Below are positions 9,282 to 10,415 of a DNA stretch of 50,592 nucleotides, in pieces (the stretch's first letter is position 1; the number at the start of each line of letters is the position of its first letter). The notes beneath the pieces are model-generated. The model was given only the letters and a program-made list of their open reading frames with translations. It was not told the origin of the DNA and ran no database searches. The stretch lies in the NCBI GenBank assembly GCA_018817125.1, contig JAHIUN010000003.1, positions 1 to 50,592 on the forward strand, read 5' to 3'. A program made the position numbers and the translations under genes. This stretch comes from Patescibacteria group bacterium (GTDB taxonomy: Bacteria; Patescibacteriota; Gracilibacteria; UM-FILTER-43-11).

Positions 9282-9390
9282 ACTGCAGGCAGTTTAGCAC
9301 GAAAACGAAAAAATTCCATTGAAGGGGCAGCAATGGCCCTACTTGCTACTTTTCAAAGCACAAATTTTAGATTTGTCTACTTTTTATTAT

Positions 9391-9412
9391 GGCTTATGTA
9401 AGCCGTTTTTTT
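9391..9412 (+). terminator. Possible plus-strand terminator
   Basis: GGCTTA-TG-TAAGCC followed by G and seven T. No plus-strand gene is directly upstream except the nhaA fragment, so it may shield the LexA operon from antisense read-through. Confidence 0.4.
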
Positions 9413-9421
9413 GATATTGGG

Positions 9422-9472
9422 TGAACTTTTGTTCATTTTTACTTGATTGAGTGAACAAACGTTTACTATAAT
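9422..9472 (+). promoter_or_regulatory. SOS promoter with two LexA operators
   Basis: TGAACTTTTGTTCA (9422-9435) is a perfect GAAC-N4-GTTC SOS box of the Gram-positive type. A second, imperfect box, GTGAACAAACGTTTAC, lies at 9451-9466. It occupies the spacer of a promoter with TTGATT at 9443-9448 and TATAAT at 9467-9472 (18-bp spacer). LexA bound there would block RNA polymerase, which predicts autoregulated, DNA-damage-induced expression of the genes at 9554-10415. Confidence 0.85.
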
Positions 9473-9553
9473 TGAATTGTTACTGATGATTGGCTGGCCG
9501 ACTGACTTGTGACGGCCCAGGCTGATCCTCCATCTCATTAACCTGTATGTATT

Positions 9554-9730
9554 ATGTTTATCAATTTACTGATTGCTTCGGCGTTTGTTCTAACCACCTT
9601 CATCGTGATTTTGAATTTTAATCGTCTGTTGGAATGGTCCGATTGGATGATGCACCGATTCAATCAATTCAAATCGTTTGCCGATGTTTTGATCCGCGCC
9701 TACCGCAACCGGCATCAACTTAGTGCTTAA
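9554..9730 (+). CDS. SOS-operon membrane microprotein (58 aa)
   Basis: First gene after the LexA-controlled promoter. MFINLLIASAFVLTTFIVIL is one transmembrane helix (residues ~3-21). A polar, basic tail with several aromatic residues follows (LLEWSDWMMHRFNQF...AYRNRHQ). No known family is recognised. SOS operons elsewhere often encode small membrane-anchored division inhibitors (YneA beside lexA in Bacillus, SidA in Caulobacter), so a checkpoint role is a reasonable inference. An alternative ATG at 9547 is in another frame. Confidence 0.6.
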   Translation: MFINLLIASAFVLTTFIVILNFNRLLEWSDWMMHRFNQFKSFADVLIRAYRNRHQLSA

Positions 9731-9756
9731 TTTTTAGTCCTTAGTCCTTCATCACT

Positions 9757-9837
9757 ATGATTATTAATTCTTTTCTCGCGATTTTCGCGCTTACCATCGC
9801 TTTCGGCTTTCTTTATATCATTAACCATGTACGCTAA
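9757..9837 (+). CDS. SOS-operon 26-aa membrane microprotein
   Basis: MIINSFLAIFALTIAFGFLYIINHVR is a single transmembrane helix with a short basic end. The stop TAA and the lexA ATG share one base (TAATG at 9835-9839), so translation is probably coupled. It is close in size to the 29-aa SidA division inhibitor, but no sequence relation is claimed. Position and coupling are the main evidence. Confidence 0.55.
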   Translation: MIINSFLAIFALTIAFGFLYIINHVR

Positions 9838-10415
9838 TGATTGAAAATTTAAAAGAAAAAATCGGACGTATCCGACACTATTACCGTGAAAATAAGGTAA
9901 TGCCCACTTATGATGAGATCTGTATGCTTTTTGGCTTTAAGTCTAAAAACGCCGCCTTTAAGCTGGTTAATAAGCTGGTCGATGAGGGTTTTGTGGAAAA
10001 GATGGATAAAGGCCGCTTAAAGCCTGGTACTAATTTCCTTGGCCTTCCTCTTTTCTCCAGCGTATCCGCTGGCCCGGCCACCGCAGAAGAGGAGATCCTT
10101 CTGGACCATGTAGATTTAAATGATTATTTAATCCAGAAACCGGAGTCAACGGTCCTTATTAATGTACGAGGTGACAGCATGATCGATGCCGGTATCCATG
10201 AGGGGGATAAGGTCATCGTTGACAGGAAGGCAGTTCCTCAGCTGGGCAGTATCGTGGTCGCCGTGGTAGACGGCGAATACACCGTGAAATATCTGGATAA
10301 GACGAAAGATGGTAAAATCCTCCTTCAGCCCGGCAATCCGAAATACGAACCCATTTTGCCGCAAAACGAAATGGCGGTTTTTGGGAAGGTGGTCGGAGTG
10401 ATAAGAAAAATGTAA
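9837..10415 (+). CDS. lexA: LexA-type SOS repressor / S24 autoprotease
   Basis: 192 aa. The N-terminal winged helix (1-65) has TYDEICMLFGFKSKNAAFKLVNKLVDEGFV as its recognition region, here described in part. The cleavage site Ala78-Gly79 (VSAGPA) is followed by a peptidase domain with catalytic Ser114 (RGDSM) and Lys151 (EYTVKYLDK). RecA-stimulated self-cleavage would relieve repression. It is the last gene of the unit starting at the SOS promoter and ends at a bidirectional terminator. Confidence 0.93.
   Translation: MIENLKEKIGRIRHYYRENKVMPTYDEICMLFGFKSKNAAFKLVNKLVDEGFVEKMDKGRLKPGTNFLGLPLFSSVSAGPATAEEEILLDHVDLNDYLIQKPESTVLINVRGDSMIDAGIHEGDKVIVDRKAVPQLGSIVVAVVDGEYTVKYLDKTKDGKILLQPGNPKYEPILPQNEMAVFGKVVGVIRKM

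Follow-up and report, generated by a model that had tools for sequence, protein, structure and literature searches.

Small SOS-controlled membrane proteins linked to lexA are, as a functional kind, already known. SOS division inhibitors with one transmembrane (TM) segment are commonly encoded beside lexA (PMC6851548), and YneA acts on FtsW (PMC13396833). In Escherichia coli, the 27-aa SOS-regulated protein DinQ, with a single TM segment, depolarises the membrane (PMC3567139). The locus described here encodes two microproteins, ORF1 and ORF2, ahead of lexA. It resembles the Gram-positive SOS division inhibitors YneA, SosA, ChiZ and DivS in that the products are small, carry one N-terminal TM helix, and are lexA-adjacent and LexA-controlled. 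ORF2 can be likened by size class to SidA of Caulobacter, a very small SOS-induced single-TM membrane protein, and the locus also recalls DinQ and TisB of E. coli, which are SOS-regulated single-TM peptides of 27–29 aa.

Layout of the operon and its regulatory sites

The locus lies in a window of 50,592 nucleotides (the whole stretch of DNA that was analysed), which is contig C9 of a 1.03-Mb assembly with a completeness of 88.7%. The first-pass annotation had assigned the DNA to a CPR host, in agreement with the nearest records, which belong to Candidatus Peregrinibacteria (JAFGCR010000007.1 and PMDG01000064.1). The gene order after two LexA boxes is ORF1 (58 aa), ORF2 (26 aa) and lexA, and the region contains the following features:

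9374..9401, + strand: upstream element TGTCTA-N-TGGCTTATGTAA, 5' of box 1 in most lexA promoters of the set of 14 and in most family recA promoters
9421-9435 (GTGAACTTTTGTTCA) or 9421..9436 (GTGAACTTTTGTTCAT), + strand: LexA box 1, with a perfect GAAC-N4-GTTC core, 5' of the -35 hexamer
9443..9472, + strand: promoter TTGATT-18-TATAAT, conserved in position in 14/14 relatives
9451-9466 (GTGAACAAACGTTTAC), + strand: LexA box 2, with one mismatch, filling the -35/-10 spacer
9488..9527, + strand: 5' leader hairpin of 13 pairs, with compensatory changes and a conserved 12-nt loop
9554..9730, + strand: ORF1, 58-aa membrane microprotein (14/14 lexA loci, profile search, codon constraint, AF2 model)
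9757..9837, + strand: ORF2, 26-aa single-TM microprotein (14/14 lexA loci, codon constraint)
9837..10415, + strand: lexA, 192 aa, with a winged-helix N-terminus and an S24 self-cleaving C-terminal domain

The -35 hexamer TTGATT occupies positions 9443-9448 and the -10 hexamer TATAAT positions 9467-9472, separated by 18 bp. A perfect and an imperfect LexA box had been described at this promoter in the first-pass annotation, which was right on both, coordinates included. The two boxes are 30 bp apart in the window and 30–31 bp apart at all 14 family lexA promoters, where the second is always within the spacer, and every locus retains a LexA box over the promoter. On these predicted LexA sites, the locus is an SOS-controlled, autoregulated master operon of one Peregrinibacteria family.

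The assignment of the third gene is based on profiles, structures and operator sites. LexA scores 93.4 bits against PF00717 and 107.5 bits against the TIGR00498 equivalog, just under the cut-off of 110.95, with residues 11-192 aligned; the match to PF01726 is weak (15.5) and does not reach the cut-off of 23.7. The protein aligns over its full length to LexA chains in the PDB, and is the sole LexA-type protein found in the genome. It combines a winged-helix DNA-binding domain with an S24 self-cleaving domain, and predicted double boxes mark the promoters of both lexA and recA. A search of the 1.03-Mb genome for the exact 11-base pattern GTGAACNNNNGTTCA retrieved two sites only, in the lexA operon and at recA, which argues against chance matches. 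At recA the two boxes are again 30 bp apart, and a GxxExxY-radA operon (G000:C7:12674) and rarA (G000:C2:16632) have one GTGAACATTTGTTTA site each. The double box at recA and the single boxes at the two other loci indicate that the SOS regulon is real. The inclusion of rarA and GxxExxY-radA makes this regulon unusual, yet coherent.

Two further elements surround the boxes. The upstream pattern TGTCTA-N-TGGCTTAxxTAA is positioned about 14–16 nt 5' of LexA box 1 in family lexA promoters, and is also found before the recA boxes (G000:C10:35549-35577); of its six occurrences in the genome, one is at lexA and one at recA. The element could act as a terminator, or serve as a second promoter or an additional operator. 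The leader hairpin has an invariant loop core, CTGACTTGTGA, and was found only in the window genome and its two nearest relatives, at the lexA locus only. An Rfam scan of the region gave matches far below the gathering scores, with no antisense RNA above threshold.

A second, LexA/UmuD-like paralogue is found in relatives (L031-L036), mostly with one perfect box, and the copy in L031 lies directly 5' of a dinB-like polymerase gene. The paralogue is apparently absent from the window genome (88.7% complete). The paralogue loci have a single box, and no microproteins were found there where the upstream region was readable; the ORF1/ORF2 pair is therefore specific to the master operon.

Conservation and predicted structure of the microproteins

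Orthologues of this lexA, 67–100% identical, are present in 14 genomes of the family that represent 10 genera. The proposal of an SOS operon with two membrane microprotein genes had been made to depend on conservation at the lexA loci of relatives. It is supported by that comparison: each of the 14 genomes has ORF1 followed by ORF2 between the double boxes and lexA. When 353 genomes of the class were searched with an ORF1 profile, exactly these 14 loci were retrieved, with E-values from 3e-30 to 5e-21 and a next best match of 0.0035, and the ORF2 profile retrieved the same 14 loci with E-values up to 9e-8, followed by a match at 0.009. The four family genomes in which this lexA is missing yielded no ORF1 either. 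In a wider sample of 379 genomes from the phylum, matches came from the genus of the window only, and a search of viral contigs found no relatives of the microproteins. An origin in a mobile element was considered and rejected.

Substitutions between close relatives follow the pattern of coding sequence. The dN/dS ratio is 0.05–0.20 for ORF1 in most close pairs where it is computable, and 0.13–0.25 for ORF2 in most computable close pairs, with a value of 0.96 for the pair L008/L009. An excess of differences at third codon positions was found over five independent pairs (p=6e-11 for ORF1 and p=4e-5 for ORF2). Judged by these codon substitution patterns, both ORFs are translated and constrained at the protein level. 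They diverge faster than lexA; small effectors usually evolve fast. The segment 9757-9860, which comprises ORF2 and the start of lexA, shows few differences from the congener, far fewer than ORF1 or the rest of lexA. Constraint on ORF2 as RNA, suggested by the two closest genomes, which differ at 3 of 78 bases, was dropped because other pairs lack this low divergence.

The spacing of the genes is variable across the family. In the window, the TAA of ORF2 and the ATG of lexA overlap as TAATG (9835-9839), as the first-pass annotation had stated, but the overlap is not a general trait, since no more than 5 of the 14 genomes have an ORF2 that runs into the start of lexA. The gap between ORF2 and lexA measures 6–127 nt in five others and 315–502 nt in the remaining four (L006, L009, L010 and L013). 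A four-helix-bundle gene (TIGR02436) lies inside the 315–502-nt gaps, two of the four having been scanned, and occurs in several genera. ORF1 and ORF2 overlap as ATGA in three genomes.

Both microproteins had been described as single-helix proteins. This holds for the 26-aa ORF2, a bare membrane helix, and not for the 58-aa ORF1, for which two helices are predicted: the AF2 model (mean pLDDT of 83) consists of a TM helix at residues 2–20 and a long helix at residues 22–57. A Foldseek search of the PDB with this model gave no match. ORF1 is 58–72 aa long across the family, with a charge of 0 before the TM segment and a net charge of +2 to +11 after it. The tail is amphipathic, and ends in a stretch of the RSKLLTEYILRAYxRYRKxINK type that is conserved in most members. 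From the basic C-terminal charge and the positive-inside rule, ORF1 probably adopts an N-out/C-in topology that would place the basic amphipathic helix in the cytoplasm.

ORF2 ranges from 25 to 28 aa, with a polar residue at position 4 and a small one at position 8 in 14/14 genomes, and Gly or Ala at position 17 in 13/14. The TM segments of ORF1 and ORF2 align with each other (hhalign P=8e-5, probability 61%), and both N-termini share the motif M-h-x-[N/S/T]-h-h-h-[A/G/S]. An ancient duplication could account for the resemblance, as could packing of the two against each other or against a common partner; this kinship is suggestive only, because hydrophobic bias inflates alignment scores of this kind. 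Searches of Pfam, NCBIfam, PHROG and the PDB with both profiles revealed no convincing relative and no LysM domain. The few library matches comprised one or two members each, with weak E-values.

Proposed function and competing explanations

Action on the cell envelope during DNA repair, perhaps to pause division, is the most likely role of the microproteins. In the mechanism that we tentatively favour, at somewhat less than an even chance, they form a temporary SOS-induced checkpoint on the envelope or division. DNA damage would lead to a RecA-ssDNA filament, self-cleavage of LexA and clearance of both boxes, and one transcript would then supply ORF1, ORF2 and fresh LexA, an order of genes that is seen in the DNA and whose dynamics we infer. 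Both proteins are predicted to insert into the cytoplasmic membrane, where they could restrain FtsW or another septal component for the duration of repair, and LexA re-accumulating from the same mRNA would shut them off again. A divisome target is suggested by the lexA-adjacent small membrane proteins that inhibit division in other phyla, the precedents being YneA, SosA and ChiZ, together with SidA, and by the block of FtsW by YneA. Such targets exist in the family, since FtsZ is present in 15 of 18 family genomes (14 over the cut-off) and FtsW-type proteins in 18 of 18; FtsZ was found in the congener and not in the window's own genome (88.7% complete). Co-transcription with lexA points to a mild, titrated activity and not to a strong toxin. 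Besides the FtsZ missing from the window's own genome, two findings count against the checkpoint: no homology to YneA, SosA or other families could be established, and the ORF1 tail is probably inside, whereas the active C-terminal part of SosA and YneA is outside. A bolder extension, which is possible and rather doubtful, holds that the two mutually related microproteins form a two-part SOS effector that, unlike YneA and SosA, would act from the cytoplasmic face to stop division or re-set the envelope, and that CPR lineages have repeatedly placed a small SOS effector of their own before lexA-type genes.

The main rival to the checkpoint regards the microproteins as mild membrane peptides of the DinQ/TisB kind, which would lower the membrane potential and ATP and bring about a slowed, tolerant state. 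ORF2, a single-TM peptide of 25–28 aa under LexA, is DinQ-like in size. We nevertheless consider this explanation unlikely: a strong toxin would be costly on an mRNA shared with lexA, which is needed at a basal level, DinQ and TisB are controlled by antisense RNAs of which Rfam detected none here, the leader hairpin is confined to three genomes, and the long basic tail of ORF1 is without counterpart in either peptide. That amphipathic tail (+2 to +11), with its RAYxRYRK-type stretch in most members, could alternatively belong to another sort of envelope or repair adaptor, in which ORF1 tethers the nucleoid, a repair complex or LexA. The strong and exclusive linkage to lexA fits such tethering, but a shared promoter and vertical descent also explain the one-to-one linkage, and we assign this proposal a low probability.

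The remaining explanations deny the microproteins a function of their own. As leader peptides, the ORFs would set the level of LexA by translational coupling and their sequence would be nearly irrelevant, a view encouraged by the TAATG overlap in the window and its nearest relatives and by the ATGA overlap of ORF1 and ORF2 in three genomes. The amino acid sequences of both are under selection, however, and gaps of 6–127 nt separate ORF2 from lexA in five other genomes. In the four genomes where another gene has entered before lexA, within gaps of 315–502 nt, the microproteins have kept their place next to the promoter, which indicates that they are genes and not leader peptides; this role is accordingly very improbable. 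Any sequence contains many short frames, and the locus could in principle be a coincidence of open frames and palindromes, for which we see practically no chance: conservation, the rarity of the boxes, the specificity of the profiles and the codon pattern are all contrary to it, and conservation and codon pattern together refute it.

Comparison with known SOS microproteins

A different conserved frame of 67–87 aa lies between a LexA box and a lexA-like gene in other CPR lineages (L076, of Taylorbacteria, L079, L083, L084 and L089). It carries the motif EIxRLNxxIDLKIIRGxxYxxESRRHK, is unrelated to ORF1 and ORF2, and had no Pfam match in the three members scanned. Unannotated SOS microproteins before genes of the lexA type may thus recur in CPR lineages, and these findings suggest that the length cut-offs of gene callers miss SOS effectors of reduced CPR genomes. 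The ORF1/ORF2 pair, in its one-to-one association with lexA, is a testable candidate for coupling DNA damage to growth or division in CPR bacteria, which are ultra-small and mostly host-dependent. The SOS network of Patescibacteria was reportedly, by the title of the work, the subject of a comparative genomics study by Sanchez-Osuna et al. in 2017 (doi 10.1111/1462-2920.13826). The open full-text literature yielded no paper in which LexA and Peregrinibacteria are both named.

The differences from the described systems concern gene organization, regulation and topology. DinQ and TisB belong to the type I toxins and have antisense RNAs at loci of their own, whereas ORF1 and ORF2 are members of the lexA operon with no antisense RNA found by Rfam. 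Compared with SidA, the Peregrinibacteria locus has a second, larger partner gene and forms an operon with lexA. With respect to YneA, SosA, ChiZ and DivS, two proteins are encoded here in one operon upstream of lexA, while sosA is divergent from lexA; the C-terminus is out in YneA and SosA, in contrast to the N-out/C-in orientation without LysM that is predicted here. What appears to be new at this locus is the sequences themselves, the placing of two genes before lexA in a single operon, the probable reversal of the topology, and the occurrence in a CPR host.
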